The notes under the pieces were generated by a model. The model did not search any database. It was not told the origin of the DNA and saw only the letters and a program-made list of their open reading frames with translations. 64,000 nucleotides of DNA from the NCBI RefSeq assembly GCF_030503595.1, contig NZ_CP129966.1, positions 2,170,001-2,234,000 on the forward strand, given 5' to 3'. Below, in pieces: positions 3,870 to 64,000 of this stretch (position 1 is the stretch's first letter; every line of letters begins with the position of its first letter). Source of the DNA: Corynebacterium sp. P4-C1 (GTDB lineage Bacteria; Actinomycetota; Actinomycetes; Mycobacteriales; Mycobacteriaceae). The position numbers and the translations under genes are program-made.

Positions 3870-4846
3870 AGTGAGACCTTTCGTGCGTTTTCTTCGTGTG
3901 CGGAGACAGCGTCCGTTGCGCTTTCACGCTTATCGACGCGCCCCTGCTTCGCCGCCCTCACGTGCTTGATGAAGATGGGGACGATGACGGCGATGTAGAT
4001 GAACCAGGCGATGACCTGCAGCCAGGACATTTGAGGCATGAATCCGGTGAACGCCTGGAGCAGCGTGGCGGTGATGCCGGCCGGATCGACAACGTCCTCG
4101 AGATTGAACGCCCACCCGAACGGGAAGGATGCCATCCAGAACGGGTAGGAATCGAATCCGGTGAGCACTTCGCCGGTGCGCGGGTGCGTCGGGGCAATGG
4201 GGGCGCCGGAGAACGGGCCGGGGAGGAACTGCGCCTCTTGGAGGTCGTGGACGGCGTAGGCGAGAATGCCCGCCGCGACGACAATGAGCAGCGCACTGGA
4301 CCAGGTGAAGAAGGTGCCCAGGTCGAGCTTCAGTGCGCCGCGGTAGATCAGCCAGCCCATGACGACGGCGATGCCGATGCCGAGGAAAGCGCCCCCGACC
4401 GCGCTCGGAGTGGTGGTCCACCCCCAAAGCAGCAGCGTCAGTTCGATTCCTTCCCTGGCGACGGCCACGAACGCGAGCCAGAACAGCGCTTGCGTTCCTT
4501 TGGCGAGCGCTGCCCCGGTCTTGTCGTCGAGCATGGTGCGGAGCTTGCCGTTCTCGTTGCTCAAAGAGACGATCATGCCGGTGATCATGGCCACGGCGAT
4601 GAGCGACATGATGCCGCCGATCGCTTCCTGCGCCCGGAACGACAGGCCGTAACGCCCGAAGGTGAACAGGGCGCCGAGCGCGGTGCAGATCACCGCGGCG
4701 GAGACGACACCGACCCACACGGTGCGGCCCGCTTTTGCGGCCCCGCCGTCGTTTCCGCGACGTGCGATGGCAGCGAACAGCATACCGACAATGAGTGATG
4801 CTTCCAGGCCTTCGCGCAGGCCGACCAGGAATGCTGCAATGAACAT
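3866..4846 (-). CDS. efeU: Ferrous iron permease EfeU (FTR1 family)
   Basis: 326 residues. The start chosen is the ATG giving MFIAAFLVGLREGLEASL, because the FTR1 family begins exactly there; the longer open frame upstream adds 22 residues with no membrane character. The first helix holds the REGLEA form of the iron-permeation motif RExxE, and a second such motif, REGIE, lies near residue 130. Seven or so hydrophobic helices are visible, and the C-terminus is a charged tail of about 40 residues (HVRAAKQGRVDKRESATDA), longer than in E. coli EfeU. It moves iron across the membrane using the EfeO/EfeB surface partners. It is the first gene of efeUOB and lies downstream of a DtxR-type box. Confidence 0.94.
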   Translation of the reverse strand: MFIAAFLVGLREGLEASLIVGMLFAAIARRGNDGGAAKAGRTVWVGVVSAAVICTALGALFTFGRYGLSFRAQEAIGGIMSLIAVAMITGMIVSLSNENGKLRTMLDDKTGAALAKGTQALFWLAFVAVAREGIELTLLLWGWTTTPSAVGGAFLGIGIAVVMGWLIYRGALKLDLGTFFTWSSALLIVVAAGILAYAVHDLQEAQFLPGPFSGAPIAPTHPRTGEVLTGFDSYPFWMASFPFGWAFNLEDVVDPAGITATLLQAFTGFMPQMSWLQVIAWFIYIAVIVPIFIKHVRAAKQGRVDKRESATDAVSAHEENARKVSL

Positions 4847-4922
4847 GGCTGGAACTTTCTTGTGCGTGACACGGCTTGTCCGAATGCGGTGACCAGCGAA
4901 ACTTAGGGTCACCTTGACTAGC

Positions 4923-4941
4923 CAAGGTTAACCTTACCTAA
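4923..4941 (-). promoter_or_regulatory. DtxR iron-repressor box upstream of efeUOB
   Basis: Read on the minus strand the 19 bases are TTAGGTAAGGTTAACCTTG, matching the DtxR consensus TTAGGTTAGSCTAACCTAA at 15 of 19 positions with both inverted half-sites intact. It lies 77 bp before the efeU start codon, a normal operator distance. DtxR represses iron-uptake genes when iron is plentiful, so efeUOB should be induced by iron limitation. Family knowledge plus direct sequence match; binding itself is inferred. Confidence 0.85.
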
Positions 4942-4956
4942 CGCTCATTGCGGATG

Positions 4957-4991
4957 AAAAACGCCCTCCCCGCTTCAGTGCGGGAAGGGCG
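4957..4991 (-). terminator. Rho-independent terminator of the echA transcript
   Basis: Twelve-base arms at 4962-4973 and 4980-4991 pair with one mismatch around a six-base loop, and on the minus strand the stem is followed by five T residues (4957-4961). It ends the transcript that carries the enoyl-CoA hydratase gene and separates it from the efe promoter. Confidence 0.8.
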
Positions 4992-5037
4992 GAAAAGCGA
5001 GGTGGGCGTGCCGATGAAACTCCGGAAAGAACCCCGG

Positions 5038-5820
5038 TCAGAACTTCGGGGCGCGGCGCTCCAAGAAGGCGGCGACGCCCTCGGCGTGGCCGGGGCTTTG
5101 GAGCAGTTCGGTTTGGAACCTCGCCTCGTTGATCAGGCTGCCCGGCAACTGGGGCAACGCGACCCGGTTCACAGCGCGCTTGGTCTGGGCGATGGCGCCC
5201 CGCGGTGAGGTGGAGAAGCTCTCAGCCCACTGCTTCGCGTGGTCGAGGGCGACACCGTCGTCGGTGACATCGGCGAACAAGCCGAAATTCACGGCGTCGG
5301 CAGCCGGAATGCGCTCCTGCAAGAGGACCAGCTGCATCGTGCGGTGGCGGCCGATTGAAGCGGCGAGGGTGGCCACCGCGCCGCCGTCCGGCATGAGTCC
5401 AATGCGCCCGAAGGGGAGGGTGATGAAGGACGATTCAGCCGCGACGATGAGGTCGCACGCGCAGGCCAGCGATGCACCAACCCCGGCGACGGCACCCTCA
5501 GCGGCGGCGATCACCGGCACATCTGCGCGGGTGATCGAGCCGATCATGTGCTCGATGCCGCCCAGTGAGTGCGCGGCGGCTTCCGTGGAGCTCTCGGCGG
5601 TGAACGCCTCGATGTCCATGCCGGAGCAGAAAGACTTCTCGTCGCCGGTGACGATGATGCAGCGCACCGCCGGATCGGCGTTCGCCGCCTGAACGGCATC
5701 GCCGATCGCCCAATAAGAGTCCGGCTCCAGCGCGTTGCGCTTGGCGGGGTTGGAGATGCGGACGAGGGCGAGGGTGCCGTCGATAAGCGAGGTGATGTTC
5801 CCCTTGAGCTCGCGCGACAT
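5038..5820 (-). CDS. Enoyl-CoA hydratase/isomerase family protein
   Basis: 260 residues with the crotonase fold. The oxyanion-hole segments are visible (EKSFCSGMDIEAF near residue 65 and GAVAGVGASLACACDLIVA near residue 110), and the late stretch ends in AFLERRAPKF, typical of crotonases. Residues in the catalytic-glutamate positions are not both obvious, so hydratase versus isomerase activity is left open. A ribosome-binding site (AAAGG) precedes the ATG. The gene starts 11 bases after the nitronate monooxygenase stop, so the two form an operon ending in the terminator at 4957-4991. A role in acyl-CoA breakdown is likely given the fad genes at 24-33 kb. Confidence 0.88.
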   Translation of the reverse strand: MSRELKGNITSLIDGTLALVRISNPAKRNALEPDSYWAIGDAVQAANADPAVRCIIVTGDEKSFCSGMDIEAFTAESSTEAAAHSLGGIEHMIGSITRADVPVIAAAEGAVAGVGASLACACDLIVAAESSFITLPFGRIGLMPDGGAVATLAASIGRHRTMQLVLLQERIPAADAVNFGLFADVTDDGVALDHAKQWAESFSTSPRGAIAQTKRAVNRVALPQLPGSLINEARFQTELLQSPGHAEGVAAFLERRAPKF

Positions 5821-5831
5821 TGCAGCGGCCT

Positions 5832-6932
<1,101 letters not shown>

Positions 6933-7022
6933 TCAGTGCGCTGAATGAATCCGGCGGGGGATTCCCTGAAAGGCCACGTGGAATTAACTTCCCTGTCAGC
7001 TCCCTCGAATATTTTTCACAGT

Positions 7023-9573: not shown

Positions 9574-9579
9574 CTCGAG

Positions 9580-9612: not shown

Positions 9613-9637
9613 CATGCAAAGGACGTGCACAGCAAAT

Positions 9638-13607: not shown

Positions 13608-13625
13608 GCTTATCGACGCAAGAAG

Positions 13626-17114: not shown

Positions 17115-17930
17115 TTATTCCCCTGAAGGTGTGGCGGTGTAGTTGGGGTCGTAGATGTCGTCGATAAGCGTGTCGGCGATGTAGTCGCCCTCGCTGGACT
17201 CCTCCTCGTCTTGCTGTTCGGTTATCTGAGGCGTGGGGTAAGACAGGTAGGACTCGTAGCCCGAGTTCGGGATATTCGACGTCAGGAACGTCAGCACCGC
17301 GTCGATGGTGAGGCGACGCATGCCCTCAGTGTTCGCGGGGCTGAGCAGGTTGATCGAGCCGAATTCTTCCACTGCCGCGTGGTTGCCCACGCGGAAGAAC
17401 GTCAGCGACGCGATGAGGACGACCACATCGGTCGCGGAAACACCCGGGCGGAACGCGCCGGCGTCCTGCCCCATGAGCAGGAGACGCTCGATCTGCAGGA
17501 GCACCTCCGAATCGTTGCGCGCCGCGTTGATCTCCTCCGGTGTGAGCACCGGATCGAGGTTCTCTCGAAGTAACAGGCGGATGGAATCCGGGTGCTGGAT
17601 CATGCGGTTGTACAGCACGTCCACAAAGCGGCGGATGCCCTCGACGGGAACGGCGTAGGACCGGTCCAGGAATTCCTGGAGCGGAGAGAAACTCCACGCC
17701 GCGCGGGTGAGCGCCCGGTGGTACAGACCGCGTTTGTCGCCGAAGTGGTAATGCAGCATGCGCTTGGACATGCCCGCCTCGCGGGCAATCGTCTCGAGCT
17801 TGGTCGCGGCGTAACCCTCGCGCGCGAAATGGGTCAGCGCAATGTCCACGGCGCGGTCCAGGGTGGCGGAATCGGCCTTGTCGGCCGGCTCGCCGCCGGA
17901 CAGGGGGCCGGGTTGCGGGGACTCCGTCAC
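17115..17930 (-). CDS. TetR family transcriptional regulator
   Basis: 271 residues from GTG, chosen because AAAGGAG lies five bases before it; the longer ATG frame has this site inside it. The helix-turn-helix is at about residues 35-75 (REGYAATKLETIAREAGMSK then LHYHFGDKRGLYHRAL). The ligand-binding half follows, and a 45-residue acidic tail (EQQDEEESSEGDYIADTLIDD) extends the C-terminus, making it longer than the usual 200 residues. Its ligand and target are unknown; the divergent neighbour mdh, 236 bp away, is a possible target by position only. Confidence 0.85.
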   Translation of the reverse strand: MTESPQPGPLSGGEPADKADSATLDRAVDIALTHFAREGYAATKLETIAREAGMSKRMLHYHFGDKRGLYHRALTRAAWSFSPLQEFLDRSYAVPVEGIRRFVDVLYNRMIQHPDSIRLLLRENLDPVLTPEEINAARNDSEVLLQIERLLLMGQDAGAFRPGVSATDVVVLIASLTFFRVGNHAAVEEFGSINLLSPANTEGMRRLTIDAVLTFLTSNIPNSGYESYLSYPTPQITEQQDEEESSEGDYIADTLIDDIYDPNYTATPSGE

Positions 17931-23892: not shown

Positions 23893-23994
23893 CGGGCTCG
23901 AGGGGCGACCGTCGATAAGCTCCGCGAACATGTGAGCGGGGCTACCCCGAACGAAAAAAGTGATCGGGGCTCGAAACTCGAGTGTGATCTTTCC

Positions 23995-25198: not shown

Positions 25199-27397
25199 AT
25201 GGCAGCTAAAGACATCACGACAGCAGCAGTCCTCGGCGCCGGCTCCATGGGTGCCGGCATCGCCGCGCACATGGCCAACGCGGGCATCAAGGTCCACCTC
25301 CTGGACCTGCCGCTCGAGGAGGGCGACAACCGCGACGGCCGCGCCCAGAAGGGCATCGACACCCAGCTGAAGCGCCACGGCTTCCAGCGCCCGGAGAACG
25401 CGGAGCTAGTCACTCCGGGCAACACGGAGGACCACCTGGACCGTCTCGGCGAGGTCGACTGGATTGTCGAGGCCGTCTTCGAGGACATCGACGTCAAGCG
25501 CGACACTTTCGCCAAGGTCGACGCGCACCGCGCACCGGGCACTCCGGTGTCCTCCAACACCTCCACCATCCCGCTGGAGGTCCTCCTGGGTGAGGCATCC
25601 GACGAGTTCAAGCGCGACTTCTCCATCACCCACTTCTTCAACCCGCCGCGCGTGATGCGCCTGGTGGAGTACGTCGAGGGGCCGGACACCTCCGCCGAGG
25701 TCAAGGAGCAGATGCACCACGTCCTGGAGCGCCAGATGGGCAAGGTCGTCGTGGATTGCCGCGACACCCCGGGCTTCATCGCCAACCGCATCGGCAATTT
25801 CTGGATGGCTGTCGGCGCGAAGACCGCGTTCGACACCGGCATCAAGCCAGAGCAGGCTGACGTCGCGTTTGGCCGCCCGTTCGGCGTGCCGCGCACCGGC
25901 ATCTTCGGCCTGTTCGATTACGTCGGCATCCAGCTCGTCCCGGGCATTTGGGGTTCGCTGCTGAAGGCCCTGCCGGAGTCCGACGCGTACCACGACTACA
26001 ACATTGTCGAGCGCGACGAGTTTAAGACTCTCCTGGACAAGGGCTTCACCGGCCGCACCGCCGAGTCCGGTTTCTACCGAGGCCGCGACGAGGTCTACGA
26101 CTTCGCGGCGGGGGACTACCGTCCGAAGGAGAAGTTCGAGGTCGGCAAGGACCCGAAGGAGCTCATCGAATCGGGCACGCCGGAGGGCGATTACGCGAAG
26201 GAGGTTTTCGCGACCTTCATCAAGTACTGCTGCGATACCGCCCCGGAGATCGCCGACACGGTCGACCAGATCGACATCGCGATGCAGCTCGGTTACGGCT
26301 GGAAGAAGGGCCCGTTCGCGCTCGCGGATTCGCTGGGTATCGACTTCGTCGCATCGCTTATCGACGACACCCCGGCCCTCCTCAAGTCTGCCCAGCAGGC
26401 CGGCGGCTTCTATGCCGACGGCAAGGTTCTTGGCACTGACGGAAACCTGACTGACCTGCCGAACCGCGAGGGCGTCATCCGCGTGGCTGACTTGGTCGCT
26501 GGTGCAGAAGAGATCGCCGGCAACGGCGACGCCACGGTGTACAAGCTGACCGAGGGCGACTACGCCGGTTTCGGTGTCTTCGTCTACAAGACCCCGATGA
26601 ACTCCAACTCTAATGCCGTCACCGAGCTGTGGACCCACGCGCCGGAATGGGACCTCAAGGGCCTGGTCATCGCTAACGACGAGGAGCGCGCCTTCTCCGC
26701 CGGCGCCGATCTGGGCACCCTGGCAAAGCTGTCCGGCCCGGAGGGCGACCGTGAGGAGCTCGCCCGCACCATCAAGCAGGGCATCGACGGTCTGCACGGC
26801 GCCCGTGTCGCCCCGTACCCGGTCGTCGGTGCTGTCCGCGGTGTGGCGCTCGGCGGCGGCATGGAGCTGCTGCTGCACACCGATGCGTCCGTGATCCACG
26901 CCGAGTCCCGCGTGGGCTTCCCGGAGCGCAACGTCGGTTTGTTCCCGGCCTGGTCCGGCCCGGTTCGACTCCTGGAGCGCCTGGTCGAGATCGGCGCACC
27001 GAACCCGCACGCGACGGCGTTCGGCGTCCTGCTCAACGTCAAGCCTGTCCCGGCGGTCAACGTCGACTTCTGGCGCGAGCACGACGAGGTCATCCAGTCC
27101 CCGGACCACGTCGTCGAGGGCGCCCTTGAGCTGGTGAAGAAGCTTGCCGAGGGTTACTCCGCACCCGCTGACGCCGAGCTCCCGCTCACCGGCGACACCC
27201 TCGCCTACACCGACGGTTCCGAGACGGACAAGGCCATCGGCGAAGCCCTGGCCAAGGTCTTCACCGGCGAGGGCACCGCGACCGAGGACGAACTGGCCCA
27301 GCGCCAGGTCGACGCCGCGACCGAGGTGCTGCAGCGCCAGGAGAACCACGATCGCGCCGTCGCCATGGCGACCACGCGCAAGCCGCTGAATAACTAG
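25199..27397 (+). CDS. fadB: 3-hydroxyacyl-CoA dehydrogenase / enoyl-CoA hydratase fusion
   Basis: 732 residues. The NAD-binding domain comes first (VLGAGSMGAGIAAHMANAG, about residue 10), with the HAD signature ITHFFNPPRVMRLVEYV near 142 and the C-terminal HAD domain to about 430. The crotonase domain is at the C-terminus (about 455-660: AFSAGADLG, GVALGGGMELLLH, RVGFPERNVGLFP). This order is the reverse of E. coli FadB, which has the hydratase first. It carries out the two middle steps of beta-oxidation and is coupled to fadA. A clear terminator follows. Confidence 0.94.
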   Translation: MAAKDITTAAVLGAGSMGAGIAAHMANAGIKVHLLDLPLEEGDNRDGRAQKGIDTQLKRHGFQRPENAELVTPGNTEDHLDRLGEVDWIVEAVFEDIDVKRDTFAKVDAHRAPGTPVSSNTSTIPLEVLLGEASDEFKRDFSITHFFNPPRVMRLVEYVEGPDTSAEVKEQMHHVLERQMGKVVVDCRDTPGFIANRIGNFWMAVGAKTAFDTGIKPEQADVAFGRPFGVPRTGIFGLFDYVGIQLVPGIWGSLLKALPESDAYHDYNIVERDEFKTLLDKGFTGRTAESGFYRGRDEVYDFAAGDYRPKEKFEVGKDPKELIESGTPEGDYAKEVFATFIKYCCDTAPEIADTVDQIDIAMQLGYGWKKGPFALADSLGIDFVASLIDDTPALLKSAQQAGGFYADGKVLGTDGNLTDLPNREGVIRVADLVAGAEEIAGNGDATVYKLTEGDYAGFGVFVYKTPMNSNSNAVTELWTHAPEWDLKGLVIANDEERAFSAGADLGTLAKLSGPEGDREELARTIKQGIDGLHGARVAPYPVVGAVRGVALGGGMELLLHTDASVIHAESRVGFPERNVGLFPAWSGPVRLLERLVEIGAPNPHATAFGVLLNVKPVPAVNVDFWREHDEVIQSPDHVVEGALELVKKLAEGYSAPADAELPLTGDTLAYTDGSETDKAIGEALAKVFTGEGTATEDELAQRQVDAATEVLQRQENHDRAVAMATTRKPLNN

Positions 27398-36671: not shown

Positions 36672-39593
36672 GTGGCTGACAGCGACGAGACAACCACCCC
36701 GCGCAAGCGCCGGGCACGTTCGACCGCCAAGAAGACGACGAAGAAGACAACTAAGAAAACCGCCAACAAGACCGCCAGGAAGACCGCGAGGAAGACCAGC
36801 AAGGCAACAAGCAAAAAGACGGCGGAAGCCGTGAAGAACACTGGGATGGCGCAGTTTGACCGTTCCCAGCTGGGGGAGAAAGTCCGTGTGTTCACGCTGG
36901 CGAAGGCGCTCGGCATGACCTCGAAAGAGCTGGTGCTCAAGCTTAACGAGCTCGGCCTGGTCAAGGTTGCGCAGTCGTCGTTGAGCAAGGCGGAGACCGA
37001 GCAGGTTCTCGATGCGCTTGAGGCGGAACCTCAACCTGCCGCGGAAGGAGCGGGCGAGGAACCGGACGGGGCGGTTGACGGAGCTGAGCCGTCCGATACC
37101 GACGAGCCCGGCACGGCCTCAAACCAAATCCAAACACAGACCCAAACCCAAGCCCCGTCCCAGGACGAGGCTGAGGAGAAGATCCGCCACCGCGTCCGCA
37201 AGGACGTCGAGAACGAGATCCATCAGATCGAGGAGAAGGTCGAAGCGGACCTGCTTACCGATATCGAGCCGGAGATCACTCCGGTGCCTGAAGAGGTCGA
37301 GGAGGCCGCTGGCCTCTACACCCCGGTGTTCAAGGCGGCTCCCCGGAACTCGCGGAGGAGGGCGCGGAGGGCGGGGGATGCGTCGTCAAGCGAGGCTCCC
37401 GAACAGAAGACATCCAGCGACTCCGCTGAGGCGGAGACCGTCGACGAGCCGATTCAGGAGCCGAAGGCGATCAAGGGTTCCTCGCGCCTTGAGGCGCAAC
37501 GTCGCCGCCGCAGCGAGCGCCGTGAGGAGGAGCGCAAACGTTCCCGCGTCGTGTCGCAGGCGGAATTCCTCGCCCGCCGCGAGTCCGTCGAGCGCACCAT
37601 GGTCGTGCGCGAACGCAAGCGTCACGACGGCCCCGGCACCATCACCCAGGTCGGCGTTCTCGAGGATGGCCTGCTGGTCGAGCACTTCGTCGACGCGGAC
37701 GACAACACGTCCATGATCGGCAACATCTACCTCGGCCGTGTGCAGAATGTGCTGCCCAGCATGGAGGCCGCCTTCATCGACATCGGGCAAGGCCGCAACG
37801 GTGTGCTCTACGCCGGCGAGGTGGACTGGAAGGCCGCCGGGCTGGGCGGCCGCTCCCGCCGCATCGAGCAGGCGCTGAAGTCCGGTGACCAAGTGCTCGT
37901 CCAGGTGACCAAGGATCCGGTGGGCCACAAAGGAGCGCGTCTGACCACCCAGATTTCCCTGGCGGGCCGATTCCTCGTGTACGTCCCGGGCGGCCGCAGC
38001 GCCGGTATTTCCCGTAAACTTCCCGCGCCTGAGCGCAAGCGCCTAAAGGACATCCTTGTCCGCGTCGTTCCGGGCAAGGGCGGAACGATCATCCGCACCG
38101 CTGCCGAGGGCGCCCCGGAGGAGGCCATCGCCGCCGACGTCAACCGCCTGCACACCCAGTGGGAGAGCATTAAGGAAGAGGCGGAGAAGGAGAAGTCCTC
38201 CAAGGGCGCCAAGCCCGTCACCCTCTACGAGGAGCCGCGACTGCTGGTGAAAGTCGTGCGCGACCTCTTCAACGAGGACTTCGACAAACTCGTCGTCGGC
38301 GGCAAGAAATCGTGGAATGTAGTGCACAACTACGTCCAGTCGGTCGCACCCGACCTCATGGACCGCCTGGAGAAATTCGACCGCCGCGACCACGACGGCC
38401 GCGACGCGTTCGACGTGTACCGCGTCGACGAGCAGATCCAGAAAGCCCTGTCGCGCACGGTGTGGCTGCCGTCCGGCGGCACGCTCGTCATCGACCGTAC
38501 GGAGGCGATGACGGTCATCGACGTCAATACCGGCAAGTTCACAGGTTCCGGCGGTTCCCTCGAGGAGACGGTGACCAGCAACAACCTGGAGGCCGCCGAG
38601 GAGATCGTCCGCCAGCTGCGTCTGCGCGACATCGGCGGGATGATCATCATCGACTTCATCGACATGATCCTCCCCGAGAACCAGGATCTGGTCCTGCGCC
38701 GTCTCAAGGAGGCCCTCGGCCGCGACCGCACCCGCCACCAGGTTTCCGAGGTCACGTCGCTCGGCTTGGTCCAGCTCACCCGAAAGCGCCTGGGCACCGG
38801 GCTGGTGGAAACCTTCTCCACCACGTGCGAACACTGCGGCGGCCGGGGCATCTTGCTCACCGAGGACCCCGTGGACCCCGACTCCCACACCCACTCCAGC
38901 TCCCGCAAGCCGCCCCAGGACCAGGGCAACAGCACGGCGGCGAAGTCGAAGGACAAGCGCGGGAAGAGCGCAGAGGAGCTTGTCGACGCCGTCATCGCCG
39001 CCCCCGAAGAGTCCGAAGAGTCCGACTCCCCCTCCGATGACAGTTCTGACCACAGTTCTGACAGTTCCGGTGGACAGAACAGGCGCAGCTCCCGCCGTCG
39101 TGGCCGGCGCGGTTCGGGCCGCGGCCGGGGGCGCCAGCAGGAGCAGCAGAACGAGTCCCGTCAAGCACCCGAGTCTGAGCAGACTGACACGTATGAGGAG
39201 GCGGTCGCGGAATTCGAGCGTTCGCCGCGCCGCAAGCGCAAGACCCGCGGCAACTCCATATCGGACTACCGTCCGGACCCGAAGGACTACGAGGATGTCT
39301 CCACCGGGGACGTGATCAACGAGGCCGCCGCGGCATTGGCCCAGGCGGAATCCGCCGCACCGACGGAAACGAAAGAATCCTCGCGTGCGTCCCAGCCTTC
39401 GCGTGGCACGCGCCGTCGCCGCCGCGCGACGCGGAAGTCCGTTACCTCCGCAGCGCCGAAGCAGGACCAGAATTCCGGGAATTCCGGCAAGCCTGGCAAG
39501 CCCGGGAAGGGGCAGCAGGAGCGGAAGCAGGGGGCGGCGTCGATAAGCAAGAGCCCCGGCGGACGCCGTCGCGCAACGCGGAAGTCGCGCTAA
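36672..39593 (+). CDS. rne: Ribonuclease E/G
   Basis: 973 residues from GTG. Residues 1-50 are extremely Lys/Thr-rich (repeats of KKT and RKT), histone-like, followed by an IF2-N-like domain at about 70-105 (VRVFTLAKALGMTSKELV), a long acidic linker with coiled-coil character, an S1 domain at about 330-400 (GNIYLGRV then GQGRNGVLYAGEV) and the catalytic core with aspartates in VIDVNTGKF (about 617) and IIIDFIDM (about 660), and the zinc-link CEHCGGRG (about 720). The C-terminal 230 residues are Arg- and Ser-rich and disordered, a probable RNA- and partner-binding arm. It cleaves single-stranded RNA in decay and rRNA processing. Confidence 0.95.
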   Translation: MADSDETTTPRKRRARSTAKKTTKKTTKKTANKTARKTARKTSKATSKKTAEAVKNTGMAQFDRSQLGEKVRVFTLAKALGMTSKELVLKLNELGLVKVAQSSLSKAETEQVLDALEAEPQPAAEGAGEEPDGAVDGAEPSDTDEPGTASNQIQTQTQTQAPSQDEAEEKIRHRVRKDVENEIHQIEEKVEADLLTDIEPEITPVPEEVEEAAGLYTPVFKAAPRNSRRRARRAGDASSSEAPEQKTSSDSAEAETVDEPIQEPKAIKGSSRLEAQRRRRSERREEERKRSRVVSQAEFLARRESVERTMVVRERKRHDGPGTITQVGVLEDGLLVEHFVDADDNTSMIGNIYLGRVQNVLPSMEAAFIDIGQGRNGVLYAGEVDWKAAGLGGRSRRIEQALKSGDQVLVQVTKDPVGHKGARLTTQISLAGRFLVYVPGGRSAGISRKLPAPERKRLKDILVRVVPGKGGTIIRTAAEGAPEEAIAADVNRLHTQWESIKEEAEKEKSSKGAKPVTLYEEPRLLVKVVRDLFNEDFDKLVVGGKKSWNVVHNYVQSVAPDLMDRLEKFDRRDHDGRDAFDVYRVDEQIQKALSRTVWLPSGGTLVIDRTEAMTVIDVNTGKFTGSGGSLEETVTSNNLEAAEEIVRQLRLRDIGGMIIIDFIDMILPENQDLVLRRLKEALGRDRTRHQVSEVTSLGLVQLTRKRLGTGLVETFSTTCEHCGGRGILLTEDPVDPDSHTHSSSRKPPQDQGNSTAAKSKDKRGKSAEELVDAVIAAPEESEESDSPSDDSSDHSSDSSGGQNRRSSRRRGRRGSGRGRGRQQEQQNESRQAPESEQTDTYEEAVAEFERSPRRKRKTRGNSISDYRPDPKDYEDVSTGDVINEAAAALAQAESAAPTETKESSRASQPSRGTRRRRRATRKSVTSAAPKQDQNSGNSGKPGKPGKGQQERKQGAASISKSPGGRRRATRKSR

Positions 39594-41463: not shown

Positions 41464-41549
41464 CGCTTATCGACGGCTCCCTGTCCCAGCTCGTAGACTC
41501 GCTGGCACAGGGATCACCACCTCCCCGACACTGAAAGGCAGGCATCCGC

Positions 41550-45180: not shown

Positions 45181-46458
45181 ATGAGTGATACGAGAGACTT
45201 GGAACGCGAAGAGGTAATGGCCAAAGCACAGGCGGCTAAAGCCGTCGCCCCGAGGTTGGCGACGTTGCCCACCGCCGAAAAGGATGCGGTGTTGCACGCG
45301 GCGGCGGAGGAACTCGTCGCGCGCACCGAGGAGATTCTCGCCGCGAACCAGCGCGATATCGAGGAAGGAAAAGCAGTCGGGTTGAGCGGCTCCCTCATCG
45401 ACAGGCTGGCACTCGATGCCGACCGGATCGAGGGGATCGCCGGCGGGCTGCGCCAGGTCGCCTCGCTGCAGGATCCGGTGGGGGAGGTCCTGCGCGGCCG
45501 AGTCATGTACAACGGCATCCAAATGAAGCAGGTCCGCGTGCCCCTCGGCGTCATGGGCATGGTCTACGAAGCCCGTCCGAATGTGACGGTCGACGCCTTC
45601 GGTCTTGCGTTGAAGTCGGGCAACGTGGCGCTTCTGCGCGGGTCGAAGTCGGCGCGGAACTCGAATGAGGCGCTCGTGGAAATCCTCCAGGACGTCGCGG
45701 AGAAGTATGGCCTGCCGCGCGAGATCGTGCAGCTCCTCCCGTGCGAGTCCCACGATTCGGTCCAGGACCTCATCACCGCGCGCGGACTCGTCGACGTTGT
45801 CATTCCGCGCGGCTCGGCCCGCCTCATCGAGGCGGTGGTCACAGGAGCGACCGTGCCCGCTATCGAGACCGGCACGGGCAACTGCCACTTCTACATTGAC
45901 GCCGATGCGGACCTCGACCAAGCAATCGCCATGGCGATCAACGGAAAGACGCGCCGTTGCTCCGTGTGCAACGCGACCGAAACAGTGCTTATCGACGGCG
46001 CCCTCGACCCCCGCGACCAGCTCCGCGTCATCACTGAGCTGCAGGAGGCGGGGGTGACGGTGCACGGGGACGTCGATAAGCTCTCTGCTCTCGGCGCGGA
46101 GAACGTGGTCGCCGCGACGGAGGAAGATTGGACCGACGAATATCTCTCGATGGACATCGCCGTGCAGATCGTCGACGGGGTGGACGGGGCAATTGCCCAC
46201 ATCGCGCAGTACACGTCGGGACACACTGAGGCGATTGCGTCGCTCAACGCGTACACCTGCCAGAAATTCGCCGCGGAGGTCGACGCCGCCGCCGTCATGA
46301 TCAACGCTTCGACCGCCTTCACTGACGGCGAGCAGTACGGAATGGGAGCCGAGATCGGCATTTCCACCCAGAAGTTCCACGCCCGCGGCCCCATGGCGCT
46401 ACCGGAGTTGACTAGCACGAAGTGGATTTTGGAGGGTACTGGACAGACGCGCGACTAG
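45181..46458 (+). CDS. proA: Gamma-glutamyl phosphate reductase
   Basis: 425 residues. The catalytic cysteine lies in RCSVCNATE (about residue 260), the NADPH-binding region around [12 protein letters not shown] (about 158) and the [13 protein letters not shown] signature at about 125. It reduces glutamyl phosphate to the semialdehyde, the second step of proline synthesis. TAGGAT ends eight bases before the ATG, a leaderless pattern. It contains two copies of the 11-mer CGTCGATAAGC in opposite orientation (45987 and 46071). Confidence 0.96.
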
Positions 46459-49171: not shown

Positions 49172-49813
49172 ATGAGCCGACGTTTGATCATGATGCGGCA
49201 CGGCGAGACCACGTACAACGCTGGTCGCCGCATGCAGGGACAGTTGGACACGCCGCTTTCCGATGTCGGTCTGACTCAAGCCCACGCCGCCGCCGAATGG
49301 GTCGCGGGCATGGGAATCACCAAAATCGTGTCGTCCGATCTGAGCCGCGCCCGCACCACAGCCGAGATTATCGGAAAGAAGCTGGATCTCGAGGTGGAAC
49401 TTGAGCCGCGCCTGCGTGAAACCCACTTGGGCACGTGGCAGGGAATGACGCACGACGAGGTAGACGGCGCGTTCAGCGGAGCCCGCGCGGCCTGGCGCCA
49501 TAATCCGGCGTGGGCGCCGCCGGAGGGGGAGTCGCGGCTGGATGTGGCGGAAAGAGCGCGTCCGGTCGTCGATAAGCTCATGCTTGACGACGCCTGGGAC
49601 GGTGCCACTATCCTCCTCGTCGCGCACGGCGGTACCATCTCGGCGCTGACGTCGAACCTGCTGGGGCTTGCGCACTCGCAATACCCCCTGCTCAAAGGGC
49701 TGGGGAACACGAACACCTCGCAGCTGTCTGCGCGCCCGCGTCTCGGCGGTGACGGCTCGTGGGACGACCCGCAGTGGTACCTCGAGGCGTGGAACCAGGG
49801 GGCCGCGCGCTGA
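49172..49813 (+). CDS. gpgP: Histidine phosphatase, probable glucosyl-3-phosphoglycerate phosphatase
   Basis: 213 residues. The phosphohistidine motif is RHGETTYN (about residue 9), the second histidine in VAHGGTISA (about 153) and arginines in SDLSRARTT. The family includes phosphoglycerate mutases and phosphatases; the position next to rsfS matches mycobacterial gpgP (Rv2419c), which dephosphorylates glucosyl-3-phosphoglycerate during methylglucose lipopolysaccharide and glucosylglycerate synthesis. The gene symbol rests on position more than on residues. The degV start overlaps the stop. Confidence 0.75.
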   Translation: MSRRLIMMRHGETTYNAGRRMQGQLDTPLSDVGLTQAHAAAEWVAGMGITKIVSSDLSRARTTAEIIGKKLDLEVELEPRLRETHLGTWQGMTHDEVDGAFSGARAAWRHNPAWAPPEGESRLDVAERARPVVDKLMLDDAWDGATILLVAHGGTISALTSNLLGLAHSQYPLLKGLGNTNTSQLSARPRLGGDGSWDDPQWYLEAWNQGAAR

Positions 49814-50649: not shown

Positions 50650-50702
50650 GGTCCAGGACAAAGCTCTTTGGGGCTCGCTCCGCGCGCCGTAGCGTGAGCG
50701 CC

Positions 50703-51326
50703 ATGAACGTATCGCAGCGTCTCGCCGAACTCACCCGCCCGACTGGGGAAGAAGACCTGATGGCGGTGGACTACCCCGAACCCCGAATTTCTGTCCCGCC
50801 GAAACATGCCGCCGCGGCCGTCGGCGCCGTACTCGTGCTCGTCGCCGGATGGTTCCTCATACGCGGGGACACCGCGCCGGAGCCCGAGTGGGAGCACACC
50901 CAAGCCCAAGCCCCGACCGCCGAAATCGTCGTCTCAGTCGTCGGTGCCGTGGCCGCGCCGGGACTGGTCACCCTCGACGACGGTGCGCGCATCGCCGATG
51001 CCCTCGACCACGCCCAGCCGCTCCCGGAGGCGGACTTGATCAGCCTCAACCTTGCTCAAGTGCTTGCCGACGGCCAGCAGATCGTCGTCCAGAAACAAGG
51101 AGAGGCGCCCGCGGGGAGCAGCGACGGCGGCAGCAGCGGAATCTCTCTCAACTCGGCGTCCGCGCAGGAACTCACTGAACTTCCGGGTGTGGGGGAGGCG
51201 ACGGCGGCGGCGATCGTGGCGCACCGCGAATCCATCGGCACCTTCAGCAGCATCGAGCAGCTTCTCGACGTCAAGGGCATCGGCCCCGCCAAATTCGACG
51301 CCATCAAAGATCTGGTCAGTCTCTGA
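50703..51326 (+). CDS. comEA: ComEA-like DNA-binding membrane protein
   Basis: 207 residues from the ATG seven bases after TAGCGT, which favours it over the GTG nine bases upstream. One membrane helix (about 35-53) anchors an extracellular part with a SLBB-like domain (about 80-135: VSVVGAVAAPGLVTLDDG) and a C-terminal helix-hairpin-helix pair (about 145-205: LNSASAQELTELPGVGEATA, then LLDVKGIGPAKFDAI). It binds double-stranded DNA outside the membrane. Coupled to comEC, whose ATG overlaps its stop. Confidence 0.9.
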   Translation: MNVSQRLAELTRPTGEEDLMAVDYPEPRISVPPKHAAAAVGAVLVLVAGWFLIRGDTAPEPEWEHTQAQAPTAEIVVSVVGAVAAPGLVTLDDGARIADALDHAQPLPEADLISLNLAQVLADGQQIVVQKQGEAPAGSSDGGSSGISLNSASAQELTELPGVGEATAAAIVAHRESIGTFSSIEQLLDVKGIGPAKFDAIKDLVSL

Positions 51327-52888
51327 TGGGGGAGCTCCGCCTGGTGCCTGCCGCGGCGGCGGTGTGGGCTGCCGCCTTGGCCGTCATTCTCGCCGGCCCG
51401 CTGTGGGCGGTGGGAACCATAGCGGCGTTCGCCGCCGCGTGCGCCCTGCTGCGCGAATACGGCCAGGCGATTCTCTCCGGCGGCATCGGCGCGTGCTCCG
51501 CCGCCGTGGCATGGGCCCGCCGCACGCTCGCCGAAACAGCTGAATTCGGCGGCGCCATCACAGGCACAGTCAGCGGTGCCCCGAAGCAGCTCGACACGGC
51601 CGGTAACTGGATCGTCAACGTCAACGTGGAGGGCTACCCGGTCCCCGTGCCCGTCTTCGCGGAGGATATCCCAGACGGCATTGTCGCCGGCACCACCGTG
51701 ACAGTGGACGGCACCGCCTCCGAATCGACACGCCCCGGCCTCGGGACCGTGACCTTCAACGGGGATGTGGAAACGGTGGCGCCCCCAGAAGGCTTCGCGG
51801 CTTTCGCGGCGGCTGTGCGGGAACGTTTCGCCGGAGCGGTGGAAGCGTCGGTGGGCGAGCATGCCCAAGGTCTCATTCCGGGAATGGTGCTGGGAGATGT
51901 GTCGATGCAGTCGGCGGAGGAGCAGCAGTCCTACATCGACACCGGCCTGAGCCACCTGAGTGCGGTGAGCGGCGCGAACTGCATGTACGTCGCCACCGCG
52001 GCGCTGCTCATCGCGCGGGCATGCCGGCTCGGACTGCGTGGGCAGCTTCTCGCGGCGGGAACCGCCCTGCTGGTCTATGCGGGCCTCGTCGGCCCGGAAC
52101 CCAGCGTGCTGCGGGCGACAGTTTCAGGGCTCGTCGGCTTCACGGCGGTCATCTGCTCGGCCCGCGCCGAACCCATCCATGTGCTGTGCCTAGCGGTGAT
52201 TGGCCTGATCCTCGTGGACTCCGACCTCGCGGTCAACTACGCATTCGCCCTCTCCACCGCGGCGACTGCGGGCATCGTGGCCATTTCACCGCTGATCTAC
52301 CGTGCGTTGGCGCCGCTCGGTTGGCCCGACATCGTGGGCAAAGCGGTCGCGGTGGCGGTTGCCGCGGATGTGGCCACAGCGCCGATCATCGCGGGCATGG
52401 CGGGCAGGGTCTCGCTGGTCGCCGTCATCGCCAACGTGCTCGTGGCTCCCGTCGTCGGGGCCGTCACAGTGCTGGGCATGGCCGCTGCGATTCTGGCGCA
52501 GTTCCACCACCTTCTGGCCGCGCCGTTGCTGTGGATCATCCAGCCGCTCGCCGGGTGGATCCGCACCGTCGCGGATTCGGCCGACCACCTTCCCGCCACT
52601 ACGGTCCAGGCACGTCCGGCAGTGGTGGCGGTGTTCTACGGCTGGGTCATCGCAGGCTTCATCGCGTCGCGCCCGCGGGCCACGGTGGCCGCGGCAGCGC
52701 TCGTCGTGGGGATTGCGATGGTGGGGGAGGTGGAACGTGTGGACGTCGATAAGCGGCATCCGCACGTCGTCGATTCCGAAGCCGAGATCGAGCCCATCCC
52801 GCCCGGAACCACCGTCGTGGTGGTGCGCGACGGGCATCGGGACCGGCCTACCGTCACGCAGGACGGCATCCCCGTGATCTATCCGTAG
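51326..52888 (+). CDS. comEC: ComEC/Rec2-type DNA transporter (no metallo-beta-lactamase domain)
   Basis: 520 residues from the ATG overlapping the comEA stop. An N-terminal DUF4131-like region (about 1-160) precedes the competence domain with GLIPGMVLGD (about 187) and LSHLSAVSGANC (about 208), followed by a series of hydrophobic helices to about 455. The last 65 residues are a short polar tail, so the C-terminal nuclease-like metallo-beta-lactamase domain of full-length ComEC is missing, as in many actinobacteria. It should form the channel for incoming single-stranded DNA. Confidence 0.9.
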   Translation: MGELRLVPAAAAVWAAALAVILAGPLWAVGTIAAFAAACALLREYGQAILSGGIGACSAAVAWARRTLAETAEFGGAITGTVSGAPKQLDTAGNWIVNVNVEGYPVPVPVFAEDIPDGIVAGTTVTVDGTASESTRPGLGTVTFNGDVETVAPPEGFAAFAAAVRERFAGAVEASVGEHAQGLIPGMVLGDVSMQSAEEQQSYIDTGLSHLSAVSGANCMYVATAALLIARACRLGLRGQLLAAGTALLVYAGLVGPEPSVLRATVSGLVGFTAVICSARAEPIHVLCLAVIGLILVDSDLAVNYAFALSTAATAGIVAISPLIYRALAPLGWPDIVGKAVAVAVAADVATAPIIAGMAGRVSLVAVIANVLVAPVVGAVTVLGMAAAILAQFHHLLAAPLLWIIQPLAGWIRTVADSADHLPATTVQARPAVVAVFYGWVIAGFIASRPRATVAAAALVVGIAMVGEVERVDVDKRHPHVVDSEAEIEPIPPGTTVVVVRDGHRDRPTVTQDGIPVIYP

Positions 52889-53839: not shown

Positions 53840-54223
53840 GTGACTGAGATTCCCGCAGACGTGCAAGAATTCGCCACCCGCCTGTTCAACATGGCGCGCT
53901 CCGGCGACACGACCTTGTTGGATTACGTCGACCAGGGCGTCGCCGTGGACATGACCAACCAGGACGGCAACACGTTCCTCATGCTCGCGTCCTACTCCGG
54001 CCATGTTGAGCTGGTCAAAGGCCTCATCGAGCGTGGCGCGGACGTGAACAAGCTCAACGACCGCGGCCAGGCGCCGCTCGCGGGCGTTGTGTTCAAGAAG
54101 GAGGACGCGCTTATCGACGTCCTCCTTGACGCCGGTGCCGACCCCACCGCCGGAACCCCCGACGCGATCGCCACGGCGAAGATGTTCGAGCGCGACGACC
54201 TCGTGGAGAAGATGAGCAAGTGA
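53840..54223 (+). CDS. Small ankyrin-repeat protein
   Basis: 127 residues from GTG 53840, eight bases after TAATGT; an ATG frame at 53822 would add six residues. Two to three ankyrin repeats are readable (about 40-70: NQDGNTFLMLASYSGHVELV, then GADVNKLNDRGQAPLAGV, then GADPTAGTPDAIATAKMF). A helical N-terminus precedes them. Such proteins are found beside the com-holA region in corynebacteria; partners unknown. The stop overlaps the exporter start. Confidence 0.8.
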   Translation: MTEIPADVQEFATRLFNMARSGDTTLLDYVDQGVAVDMTNQDGNTFLMLASYSGHVELVKGLIERGADVNKLNDRGQAPLAGVVFKKEDALIDVLLDAGADPTAGTPDAIATAKMFERDDLVEKMSK

Positions 54224-56768: not shown

Positions 56769-56777
56769 TGTGTAGTC

Positions 56778-59451: not shown

Positions 59452-59461
59452 AGGTCTGCGA

Positions 59462-60691: not shown

Positions 60692-60709
60692 CCCCCTTAT
60701 ACTCGGGTC

Positions 60710-61939
60710 GTGTTTTCAACGATCATTCCGCCGAACGCGTCCACCCGTGAGCATGAGTTAAAGGTGCCGTGGGACCGGACAAACTCGGATCTCGGCACGT
60801 TCACGCTCTTTGCGCGCGAGCTGTACACGGACGAGTCCCTTCCGCCCCTGTTGTTCCTGCAGGGCGGTCCGGGCAATCCGGCGCCGCGCATGGTGCAGGG
60901 ATGGATCCCGGAGGCGCTCAAGCACTACCGCGTTTTTCTTCTCGACGAACGCGGCACCGGCCGGTCCGGCAAGATCGACAAGGGCACCCCGGACCTCATC
61001 CGCCCAGAGATCCTGTCGAAATTGCGCTGCCCGGACGTGGTGGCGGACGCGGAAGATCTGCGGCGCCATCTCGGATTCGAGACGTGGGACGTGCTGGGTA
61101 ATTCCTTCGGCGCGTTGTGCGTGGGCGCCTATCTATCGTTCGCTCCGGAAGGACTCGGAAGGGCATTTCTCACCGGCGCTCTTCCCCACATCGGCTGGAC
61201 CCCGGACGAGTATAATGAGATCACGCTGAATCTCGTCGATAAGCGCTGCCAAGAGTTCTACGACGCTGTTCCCTTCGCCGAGGAGAACGTCCGAAAAGTG
61301 TGCGCGCACCTGCAAGAAACAGACGAATTCTTGCCGACGGGGGAGAAACTCTCCGCGAACCGCTTCCGTTTCATCGGCGTGGCGTTGGGCGCAGAATTCG
61401 GCTTCACCATGCTGGCTAACCTGCTGGAATCACCCTTCTACGAACACGAAAAGCGGCTCCGAAAGGATTTTCTCGCCCAGGTCAGCGGCTTCATCAGCAC
61501 GGAGGTCAACCCGCTGTGGCCGGTCGTCCACCAAACCCTCATCGGTTCTTCGGATGCGGTGGGGCAATCGCACCTCGCAGCAGATCCGGCCTCAGCTGAG
61601 TCCTACTATTTGCTCGGCAACCATTTCTTCCGGCACCATTTTGAGGAAGATCCCGCGCTAAAGCCGTTCAGAGCCGCGGTCGAGGAGATGGAAACATACG
61701 ACTGGCCCCCGCTTTTCGACGAAACCCAGCTCGCCAAAAACGAGGTCCCCGCCACCGTCGCCCTCTTCGAGCGCGATATGTTCGTCCCTATTGACCTGGC
61801 AAAACAGGCGGCCTCCGCGATCGGCAATCTCACCGTCTGGACCCACCCGGAGTGGGACCACGACGCTATCTACAACCACGGACAAGAACTATTCCGCGCG
61901 ATTCACGAGATATCGCCCGCCCAGGGGAACGAGGGCTGA
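60710..61939 (+). CDS. Alpha/beta hydrolase, proline iminopeptidase-like (S33)
   Basis: 409 residues from GTG, six bases after TATACT (leaderless pattern). The oxyanion stretch is QGGPGNPAPR (about residue 50), DERGTGRSG follows (about 82), the serine elbow is LGNSFGAL (about 137) and HPEWDHDAIYN near the end supplies the histidine. Family members release N-terminal proline or act on esters; the exact activity is open. The 3' end overlaps the convergent ribokinase gene by 37 bases. Confidence 0.85.
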   Translation: MFSTIIPPNASTREHELKVPWDRTNSDLGTFTLFARELYTDESLPPLLFLQGGPGNPAPRMVQGWIPEALKHYRVFLLDERGTGRSGKIDKGTPDLIRPEILSKLRCPDVVADAEDLRRHLGFETWDVLGNSFGALCVGAYLSFAPEGLGRAFLTGALPHIGWTPDEYNEITLNLVDKRCQEFYDAVPFAEENVRKVCAHLQETDEFLPTGEKLSANRFRFIGVALGAEFGFTMLANLLESPFYEHEKRLRKDFLAQVSGFISTEVNPLWPVVHQTLIGSSDAVGQSHLAADPASAESYYLLGNHFFRHHFEEDPALKPFRAAVEEMETYDWPPLFDETQLAKNEVPATVALFERDMFVPIDLAKQAASAIGNLTVWTHPEWDHDAIYNHGQELFRAIHEISPAQGNEG

Positions 61940-62778
61940 GCGCCGGGGCGCGTGACCGCGAAAGCACCCACCTTCGCCGCGAAACGGGCGGCTTCCACGA
62001 GAGAATCGCCCTGAATGAGGCGGTGGCACAGCGCGCCCGTGAAGGCGTCGCCTGCGCCAACGGAATCGACAGACTCCACACGGGGAGATGCGACCCGCAC
62101 GACTCCGCCGCCATTTCCCACCAGCGCCCCGTCTGCACCCAACGTGACGACGACAGAAGGAAATTCGCGCAACAGCTCGTCCGCACAGACCTCAGGCGAA
62201 GACTTCTTTCCGAGCACCAGCTGCGCCTCGTGCTCGTTGACGATCAGCGGATCGGCTCTTCGCAGAGCTTCCCGGTCCACCTCGATCACCGGCGCCAGAT
62301 TCACCACCACGCGCCCGCGCGCCAGCTGGACCGCCCGCGCGAAACCATCCGCGGGGATCTCGCCCTGCAACAAAACAAGTTCCGCGTCGGCAATCAACGC
62401 AGCATGCTTATCGACGACACCTGCCCCCACCACACCGTTCGCCCCCGGCACCACCATCACGGTGTTCTCTCCGTCCGCCGCAACTGTGATGACCGCCAGT
62501 CCGGTCGGGGTGGGGGATGTCTCGACGGCTGTGAGGTCGACGCCGGCGTCGATAAGCAACTGCTTCGCGTCGTCGGCGTGCGCGTCGTTTCCTGTCGCCC
62601 CCACGAGCGCTACGGAGCTTCCCAGACGCGCCGCCGCGACGGCCTGGTTCGCCCCTTTTCCGCCGGGCGTGATGCCGCCGCCGCTGCCCAGCAGCGTCTC
62701 GCCGGGGTGGGGATGCCGCTGAACGTTAACGGTCAGATCGGCGTTGACGGAGCCGACCACGACGATGTTGAAAGCCAT
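61903..62778 (-). CDS. rbsK: Ribokinase
   Basis: 291 residues from an ATG six bases after TAGGGT, whose TAG is the stop of the upstream ABC gene. PfkB family: GSVNADLTVNV at the N-terminus, GGKGANQAVAAARLG at about 39, and the anion-hole and catalytic aspartate in VGAGDAFTGA (about 245). It phosphorylates ribose or a related sugar. No ribose transporter is in view; the ABC genes upstream look like peptide importers. Confidence 0.91.
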   Translation of the reverse strand: MAFNIVVVGSVNADLTVNVQRHPHPGETLLGSGGGITPGGKGANQAVAAARLGSSVALVGATGNDAHADDAKQLLIDAGVDLTAVETSPTPTGLAVITVAADGENTVMVVPGANGVVGAGVVDKHAALIADAELVLLQGEIPADGFARAVQLARGRVVVNLAPVIEVDREALRRADPLIVNEHEAQLVLGKKSSPEVCADELLREFPSVVVTLGADGALVGNGGGVVRVASPRVESVDSVGAGDAFTGALCHRLIQGDSLVEAARFAAKVGAFAVTRPGAQPSFPWAGDIS

Positions 62779-62787
62779 GCTTTTACC

Positions 62788-64000
62788 CTACGGAATCGCC
62801 GCGAGCAATTTCCTGGTGTACTCGTGCCGCGGGTTCGCCCACACCTCCTCGGTAGGGCCTGTCTCCACGATGCGGCCGTGGTGGAGCACCGCGATCGTCG
62901 GGCAGACCTGCCGGACAACGGACAGATCGTGGGACACGAAGACGAGGGTGACGTTGTCGTGGACGACCAGTTCGTCGATAAGCTCCAGCACCTGCGCCCG
63001 TACGGACACGTCGAGGGCTGAGACCGGTTCGTCCGCGATGAGGATCTCCGGGTGCGGGGCCGCGGCGCGCGCGATCGAGATCCTCTGCCGCTGGCCGCCC
63101 GAAAATTGGCTCGGGTAGCGGCCGCCAACTCCCTCAAGTCCGACCTGCGCGAGAACCTCGTCTGCCCGTGTGTCGCCTGCGCCCGCCTCCTTGATCGAAT
63201 CGCGGACCGTGCGGCGCGGGTTGAGCGACGAGTACGGGTCCTGGAAGACCATCTGCAGGCCCCCGTCGACGTTCACCGTTCCCGAATCCGGTTGGTTGAG
63301 CCCCGAAATGATCCGCAGGAGCGACGTCTTGCCCGAGCCGGAACCGCCCACGATGCCGATCCGCTCGCCCTTGCGCACCGACAAGCTCACGTCGTCGAGC
63401 GCCACCGTGCCGCCGCGTCTCCAAGTCACGTTGCGCAATTCGATCGCCGGCCCGCCGGTCTCCCTGAGCTTCGCGGGAAGGCCCGGTTTCGACGCCGCCA
63501 CCAACTGCGCGGTGTAGTCGACCTGCGGGTTATCCAAATCAGCGTCGGGGTCCACAATCTGTCCGTGCTTGAGCACAATGACCCGGTCGGTCATTTTCTT
63601 GATCACGGCGAGGTCGTGGGTGATGAACAGCAGCGCCATCCCCCGTTCCCGCACCAGTGTGTCCAGCAGGACGAGAATCTGCCGCTGCACCTCCACGTCG
63701 AGAGCCGTCGTCGGCTCATCGCAGATCAGCAGGTCCGGGTCGCCCGCGATGGCCATGGCGATCAGAACTCGTTGCCGCTGTCCGCCCGAAAGCTGGTGGG
63801 GGTACGCGTCCGTGCGGTCGACACCCACCTCTCGCAGAAGCTCGCGCGCCTTATGAATGGAGCACGCTTCCGCCACCTGGCGCTCCACCGTCATCAGCGG
63901 GTCGAGCGCCGTCATCGGCTCCTGAAAGACCATGGACACCGTCGAACCGCGCTGCTTACGCTTCACCCGCGGCGACGAGCCGATCATGTCCGTCCCGTTG
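62788..64000 (-). CDS. Peptide/nickel-type ABC transporter ATPase, two fused ATP-binding domains (5' end outside window)
   Basis: The frame stays open to the window edge; about 404 residues are visible. The first domain lacks its Walker A (outside the window) but shows the Q-loop MVFQEPMTALDP, signature LSGGQRQRV and Walker B LLICDEPTTALD. The second is complete: Walker A GGSGSGKTS (about residue 215), Q-loop MVFQDPYSSLNP, signature FSGGQRQRI, Walker B ILIADEPVSALD and the H-loop SHDLSVV. DppD and DppF are normally separate; corynebacteria often have them fused as here. It powers import of di- or oligopeptides, by family likeness. Confidence 0.88.
   Translation of the reverse strand, partial: NGTDMIGSSPRVKRKQRGSTVSMVFQEPMTALDPLMTVERQVAEACSIHKARELLREVGVDRTDAYPHQLSGGQRQRVLIAMAIAGDPDLLICDEPTTALDVEVQRQILVLLDTLVRERGMALLFITHDLAVIKKMTDRVIVLKHGQIVDPDADLDNPQVDYTAQLVAASKPGLPAKLRETGGPAIELRNVTWRRGGTVALDDVSLSVRKGERIGIVGGSGSGKTSLLRIISGLNQPDSGTVNVDGGLQMVFQDPYSSLNPRRTVRDSIKEAGAGDTRADEVLAQVGLEGVGGRYPSQFSGGQRQRISIARAAAPHPEILIADEPVSALDVSVRAQVLELIDELVVHDNVTLVFVSHDLSVVRQVCPTIAVLHHGRIVETGPTEEVWANPRHEYTRKLLAAIP

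Follow-up and report, generated by a model that had tools for sequence, protein, structure and literature searches.

The stretch of DNA analysed here, referred to as the window, comprises 64,000 nucleotides of Corynebacterium sp. P4-C1 (RefSeq assembly GCF_030503595.1, contig NZ_CP129966.1, positions 2,170,001 to 2,234,000 of the forward strand). It carries the predicted competence genes comEA and comEC, together with 18 exact copies of an 11-base word, CGTCGATAAGC, which the initial annotation had likened to a DNA uptake sequence (DUS). The number of copies reported there (10 on the + strand and 8 on the - strand) was confirmed, as was the presence of three of them in intergenic gaps, according to gene calls obtained here with a simple codon-usage caller rather than a standard gene finder (Table 1). 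The chance expectation for the window, estimated by dinucleotide-preserving shuffles, is 0.03 copies, and 18 copies were reached in none of 100 shuffles. One-mismatch versions, which had been described as rare, are in fact frequent, with 17 of them in the window, and exact and one-mismatch forms together give 35 matches against 1.45 expected; in a 464 kb sample, the mismatches of these forms cluster at word positions 6-9.

Table 1. Copies of CGTCGATAAGC and predicted competence genes in the window (LID and VDK, tripeptide registers described in the text).
Feature	Position	Strand	Context
CGTCGATAAGC	3928..3938	-	Coding, gene strand, VDK register
CGTCGATAAGC	5778..5788	+	Coding, opposite to gene, LID register
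CGTCGATAAGC	13608..13618	-	Intergenic, directly past called gene 12987-13607
CGTCGATAAGC	17159..17169	+	Coding, LID register
CGTCGATAAGC	23910..23920	+	Intergenic
CGTCGATAAGC	26356..26366	-	Coding, LID register
CGTCGATAAGC	32518..32528	-	Coding, VDK register
CGTCGATAAGC	39538..39548	+	Coding; sole window copy in another register
CGTCGATAAGC	41465..41475	-	Intergenic
CGTCGATAAGC	45987..45997	-	LID register; 84 bp from the opposite-strand copy at 46071
CGTCGATAAGC	46071..46081	+	VDK register; exact in 9 of 10 compared related loci (8 genomes, two held twice)
CGTCGATAAGC	49567..49577	+	VDK register
CGTCGATAAGC	52744..52754	+	Within comEC, VDK register
CGTCGATAAGC	54109..54119	-	LID register
CGTCGATAAGC	61234..61244	+	VDK register
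CGTCGATAAGC	62406..62416	-	VDK register; 141 bp from the opposite-strand copy at 62547
CGTCGATAAGC	62547..62557	+	LID register
CGTCGATAAGC	62973..62983	+	LID register; rare close same-strand pair with 62547 (426 bp)
comEA (predicted)	50694..51326	+	Helix-hairpin-helix HHH_3; SLBB slightly under cut-off
comEC (predicted)	51326..52888	+	Competence domain PF03772

The repetition extends over the whole chromosome. In 484 kb (the window plus 21 stretches of 20 kb from the host genome), CGTCGATAAGC is the top-scoring word among all 9- to 12-mers, with 95 copies against the 0.35 expected from an order-3 Markov model, so the comparison with such a model, proposed earlier as a check, places the word far above expectation. 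The complete host genome (one contig of 2,313,418 bases) contains 493 copies, 248 forward and 245 reverse, whereas the same word read backwards, used as a control, occurs once in each orientation. Among 242 genomes of the genus, the counts are two-humped, with at least 100 copies in 113 genomes, 11-99 in 56 and 10 or fewer in 73; at least 200 copies are found in 74 of the 113 word-rich genomes, the maximum being 782. The strands of these 113 genomes, once pooled, hold 15301 forward and 15377 reverse copies, and none of them departs from strand equality at p<0.01. Taking into account that 229 genomes of other genera (family search, 1.9-9.7 Mb) hold only 0-7 copies, the word is proper to Corynebacterium. 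Its overall spacing is random: the coefficient of variation of the gaps (0.977) lies within the simulated range (0.86-1.14), which rejects an even spacing of words in general and leaves same-strand pairs, treated below, as the only depleted class. A word-poor bin, G000:C1:600000-650000, considered as a possible island, has 1 word in 50 kb against a mean of 9.6; the stretch L006 (600001-620000), lying in this bin, encodes a kdp operon, a photolyase and transporters among 10 proteins of its 20 kb.

Several species poor in this main word use another 11-mer built on the common frame C[A/G]TCGNNAAGC, as revealed by a search for over-represented words in the 20 kb around comEC (11.9 kb at one locus) of 60 genomes. 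According to whole-genome counts, the dialect CATCGGCAAGC reaches 133-478 copies in 14 of the 242 genomes and at most 37 in the remaining 228; 13 of these 14 hold no more than 13 main words, the exception being G024, with 45. The dialect CGTCGTCAAGC reaches up to 488 copies, and six genomes with at least 133 of them have at most 4 main words, although it is also a minority word in many main-word genomes (88 copies in the host genome). Main words number at most 13 in 77 genomes, of which 58 hold fewer than 100 copies of either dialect, a few with intermediate numbers (CATCGGCAAGC: 37 in G032 and 29 in G128; CGTCGTCAAGC: 87 in G169 and 67 in G188). In a tree built from HolA, DegV and ComEC of 61 genomes, midpoint-rooted without outgroup and including ComEC itself, the main-word genomes and the CATCGGCAAGC group share one large clade; the word-less genomes G132, G124 and G043 are nested within it, as is G128, down to 29 copies, and the CGTCGTCAAGC species G056, G070 and G071 branch next to a deep word-less clade. 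The dialects follow species groups and keep fixed positions in common. A tree based on LepA was dropped, this protein being absent from 7 of the 61 loci and two of its long-branch matches looking like paralogues.

No word of comparable score was found in 40-140 kb samples from each of the word-less genomes G007, G043, G011, G008, G029, G021, G066 and G081, array-like repeats in G008 and in G132 aside; since the samples are of this size, a rarer word could have been missed. In G012 (L126-L130, L030, L102), a species with neither the main word nor a dialect, the motif CGCG[GA]CGTCAT is abundant (47 copies with flanks in 140 kb); it has no G-rich flank of the type described below and was not taken as a dialect. 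Other repeats were encountered in the same material. Array-like repeats, CRISPR-like in look, occur in the word-less genomes G132 (about 49 copies; L062, L136-L140) and G008 (about 24; L149-L151). Loci L078 (G085), L054 (G107) and L060/L105 (G128) show local repeats of AGGTTTACCCA (7 in 20 kb) and clustered, DnaA-box-like copies of TTATCCACAG, and the window itself holds a separate repeat, CAGGTATACCTGAAAAAC, at 4 places (seen as overlapping 13-mers).

Inside genes, the word is strongly tied to one reading register, contrary to the earlier statement that it lies in different frames. Of the copies lying in genes, 14 of 15 in the window and 64 of 73 in the 464 kb sample are read as C-GTC-GAT-AAG-C on the gene strand or as G-CTT-ATC-GAC-G on the other, so that 43 copies specify Leu-Ile-Asp (LID, word on the strand opposite to the gene), 21 Val-Asp-Lys (VDK, same strand) and 9 something else. 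It might be supposed from this single register that the word merely reflects a constraint on proteins, with LID and VDK tripeptides written in preferred codons, and indeed CTT-ATC-GAC encodes 44 of 85 LID and GTC-GAT-AAG 23 of 49 VDK. However, when synonymous codons are shuffled, a mean of 2.8 copies (highest 7, n=100) is obtained against the 72 lying wholly inside called genes, CTT makes up just 7.7% of leucine codons, and 15 of the 88 copies in the 464 kb are intergenic, which is about the non-coding share of the sequence (15%). Protein constraint, already discounted in the initial annotation, can hardly be credited as the explanation.

This conclusion is reinforced by comparison with related species, in which the word is conserved at places where identical codons drift elsewhere. 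In G009, G172 and G229 (about 80% identity), 21 of 25 aligned words match exactly, compared with 14-17% of 11-mers overall; L022 and L023, apparently the same assemblies as G172 and G229, were not counted twice, and Corynebacterium sp. p3-SID1145 (99% identity, 8/8 exact), whose ComEC is identical to that of the host genome, was excluded from this figure. Pooling the three relatives, the codon CTT is conserved in 11/11 cases inside words versus 27/122 outside, and GAT in 13/14 versus 76/230, the contrast being small for the common codon ATC (9/11 versus 478/630). The word is maintained, then, at the nucleotide level rather than by the protein. At greater distances (G059, G010, G153 and G061, 73-76% identity) only 4 of 20 words are exact, against 5-8% of all 11-mers, which indicates that the places of the word turn over while its numbers stay high.

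The 11-mer noted earlier is an exactly repeated unit, but it is only the core of a longer, polar element. On the word strand, the roughly 31 bases 5' of it are G-rich and C-poor, with G at 0.65 or above in at least 9 positions, while the 3' side departs little from background except for G at +12 and +14. An excess of at least 5 G over C in 31 nt is found at 90% of 86 sites versus 15% of random stretches, and the tract carries 4.3 bits of information over a phase-matched background, compared with 0.06 for the 3' control. Genes on either strand show the flank, as do copies in other registers or between genes (G 0.45-0.58, C 0.11-0.23); it is weaker at synonymous non-word sites. GGGG and a G-rich tract likewise precede the CATCGGCAAGC copies of G097 (49 sites), and in G056 (41 sites) the 5' tract is weaker. 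A longer mobile repeat containing the word, named earlier as damaging to the uptake proposal, was not seen, given that the flank is defined by its composition rather than by a set sequence. The insertion of the word by a mobile element or small repeat, for which its high copy number could speak, is thus very improbable: the flanks share composition only, the copies are in register with codons, and at 73-76% identity the aligned places that are not exact carry related or different codons.

With regard to orientation, the replichores were delimited by eye from the GC skew, taking + as the leading strand outside approximately 0.7-1.6 Mb; L017 and L020, of slightly negative skew, were assigned to the + arm all the same. 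The 464 kb sample contains 43 words on the leading and 45 on the lagging strand, and 198 listed positions between 0 and 1.038 Mb give 94 and 104, in agreement with the lack of strand bias claimed before. Below 2 kb, only 12 same-strand pairs are found where local jittering of the positions gives 37.1 (minimum 19 in 500 runs), whereas opposite-strand pairs at this distance occur as expected (convergent, 22 versus 20.8; divergent, 22 versus 21.0), as do same-strand pairs at 2-4 kb (37 versus 37.4). In host stretches outside the jitter-tested set, adjacent same- and opposite-strand pairs number 2 and 8 below 1 kb, and 5 and 15 below 2 kb. Other species of the main dialect, sampled at one or two 20 kb loci each, with loci of related species not mutually independent, gave below 2 kb 0/6 in G153, 0/9 in G199, 0/3 in G085, and 0/1 in both G065 and G010 (same/opposite), with no adjacent pairs at all in G030 and G061. 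Same-strand exclusion is also present with the spelling CGTCG[TC][CA]AAGC in G056 (9/25), G070 and G071 together giving 6/16. By this measure, a pair of words on one strand within 1-2 kb serves as a single word, and words on opposite strands do not interfere. The pattern suggests a process reading one strand, be it the entry of single-stranded DNA via ComEC or the action of a polar enzyme, for instance a nuclease under Chi control.

These data bear on two further explanations. One of them regards the word as a site for a nucleoid-associated or segregation protein organising the chromosome. Strands equal genome-wide and an overall spacing near random would suit such sites, for which a polar flank and same-strand exclusion are unexpected; the replichore-dependent orientation of an FtsK-orienting polar sequence (KOPS) is not observed, and 58 of the 242 genomes have at most 13 main words together with under 100 copies of either dialect. 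We regard this role as quite unlikely. The other explanation supposes a Chi-like recombination word, by which an AdnAB-type helicase-nuclease would read one orientation and favour RecA loading on the strand that is G-rich 5' of the word; close copies in the same orientation would be redundant, and opposite copies would serve enzymes arriving from the other side. The polarity of the motif, with its G-rich tract on the 5' side, agrees with this, as does the detection of PDDEXK_1 in 20/20 genomes. All 20 also hold a neighbouring pair of large proteins (about 1000-1500 aa), putatively AdnA/AdnB-like; some second members have a stop inside the match and one is cut by a contig end. Against it, RecC (PF04257) was detected in 0/20 genomes, the AdnAB-like pairs are found in word-less genomes too, and the leading-strand bias seen in E. 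coli does not appear in the replichore counts. An exactly maintained 11-base word with dialects is unlike Chi, known Chi words being shorter and over-represented just a few-fold; moreover, Chi is not known to control AdnAB of mycobacteria. Taken together, a Chi-like function seems unlikely, if less so than the other alternatives.

We consider that the word probably forms the core of a polar tag used by Corynebacterium in DNA exchange, and from its features we infer uptake, a receptor, a per-strand mechanism and a drive. The tag would consist of roughly 31 bases rich in G and, after them, C[A/G]TCGNNAAGC, spelled by lineage. DNA so tagged would be preferred by a DNA-binding protein at the cell surface that acts in natural transformation (Tad-type pilus, ComEA, ComEC). 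As ComEC-type channels let one strand through, each copy would promote the entry or recombination of its own strand, with a reach of about 1-2 kb, and a second nearby copy on the same strand would become redundant. Alleles bearing the word would enter oftener than those lacking it, and their spread through biased gene conversion would keep the word exact and distribute copies over genes and intergenic gaps, in either orientation. A change of receptor in a lineage would then give rise to a dialect, and loss of the process would lead to loss of the word.

Much of what would be expected of an uptake word is found here: a short exact word, far over chance and equal on both strands, with dialects, maintained at the nucleotide level, showing no replichore bias, in excess over both Markov and synonymous-shuffle expectations, and with no longer mobile repeat seen around it. 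We prefer uptake, as an inference, on account of three features of the word: it has dialects, it exceeds expectation by a very wide margin and it is kept exact. In its widest form, the proposal can be advanced only tentatively, namely a one-strand-reading, sequence-tagged exchange system in which DNA of kin is recognised by a G-rich landing tract and an 11-base dialect word acting over 1-2 kb of the strand that carries them, its drive having shaped more than 100 genomes, and which was lost or respelled several times within the genus.

A number of observations weigh against the uptake proposal. The transformation machinery (ComEA, ComEC and the Tad cluster) is present, and equally so in word-poor genomes: ComEC and TadA were each detected in 80/80 genomes (40 with few main words and 40 with many), which rejects both as an explanation of word presence. 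Consequently, the occurrence of comEA and comEC in the window, although correctly noted before, is no evidence either way. No receptor candidate, nor any feature accounting for which genomes have the word, emerged from the Tad cluster content of 20 genomes or from a ComEA alignment of 61 genomes (among the matches listed). TadZ scores of at least 92 bits were obtained in 39/40 word-bearing versus 12/40 word-less genomes, a difference confounded with phylogeny; this protein does not explain presence or absence of the word either, the weak scores coming mostly from one deep word-less clade and the word-rich draft genome G168 lacking a match of note. Moreover, three genomes are rich in words despite com genes that look damaged: G129 (ComEC frame of 325 aa and ComEA of 121 aa, yet 267 copies of CATCGGCAAGC), G229 (ComEC across two frames, yet 529 words) and G131 (ComEC of 350 aa, yet 322 words), cases that may reflect assembly error or recent loss. 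Same-strand exclusion without a counterpart between opposite strands would equally suit a recombination enzyme that is polar, and it is not seen in the CATCGGCAAGC dialect. Thus, adjacent CATCGGCAAGC pairs (same/opposite) in G097 are 4/6 below 1 kb and 13/8 below 2 kb, those in G001 are 2/1 and 2/2, and in G097 the words GCATCGGCAAG (8/12) and GGCATCGGCA (29/37) show no exclusion below 2 kb; within the main dialect, G013 has 2 same-strand pairs and no opposite one at this distance. Finally, a limited literature search yielded no report of natural transformation in Corynebacterium. Among the papers listed by the same search, none has a title concerning a Corynebacterium uptake word or such a repeat.

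Other traits were compared with the distribution of the word. The mycolate synthase Pks13 is over the cut-off in 26/28 genomes (split over two frames in G097, and with a 51-bit match only in G124), which speaks against the mycolate membrane as the general switch. In G124, word-less although nested among word-bearing genomes, the comEC match is interrupted by an in-frame stop; this agrees with the uptake proposal but is a single case, at a locus (L059) with 530 masked letters. ComEC frames in the 80 genomes fall into two size classes, a short one of about 480-610 aa and a long one of about 650-810 aa, the latter being typical of the deep, mostly word-less clade and found also in the word-bearing G153, G107, G056, G070 and G071.

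Sequence tags for DNA exchange are known from proteobacterial families. Were the word to serve in uptake, exchange of DNA selected by sequence would have arisen in Actinobacteria too, and the genus would share a common exchange language with dialect barriers, the three spellings and the nested losses constituting a natural experiment for finding the receptor. If the word is Chi-like instead, current beliefs on AdnAB would have to be altered, and it would be the strongest such word known to us.

Among known systems, the word recalls Chi and KOPS, as generally described, in being polar with one G-rich strand, and differs from them in its lack of leading-strand bias, its far higher over-representation, its dialects and the failure to detect RecC in any of 20 genomes. 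HIP1 of cyanobacteria is also a very abundant short word, wide in its group; it is a palindrome, unlike the Corynebacterium word, which is asymmetric with a polar flank. The uptake signal sequences (USS) of Pasteurellaceae combine a core word with an asymmetric flank of A/T tracts, and species groups have different words. Core plus asymmetric flank and words that differ by species group are shared with USS, whereas the Corynebacterium flank is G-rich and belongs to another phylum and envelope. The DUS of Neisseriaceae comprise, according to Frye et al. 2013 (PMC3630211), eight dialects following phylogeny, with some genomes of the family having no obvious word. The differences from that system are several: Corynebacterium belongs to Actinobacteria and not to Proteobacteria, its word-rich genomes hold 100-782 copies instead of the thousands of Neisseriaceae, and the sequence-specific receptor ComP of Neisseria has no known counterpart in Corynebacterium. 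To these must be added the polar G-rich flank and the same-strand exclusion, the terms "orientation" and "spacing" occurring 0 times in the main text of PMC3630211; for an uptake tag, the exclusion would amount to a testable statement on per-strand entry, one not encountered in the part of the DUS literature covered here. Nevertheless, a short word far over chance, dialects with common fixed positions that track phylogeny, word-less genomes within the group and the possibility of two dialects per genome are, as far as that paper goes, common to both, and in the sequence features tested the Corynebacterium word is like a DUS.

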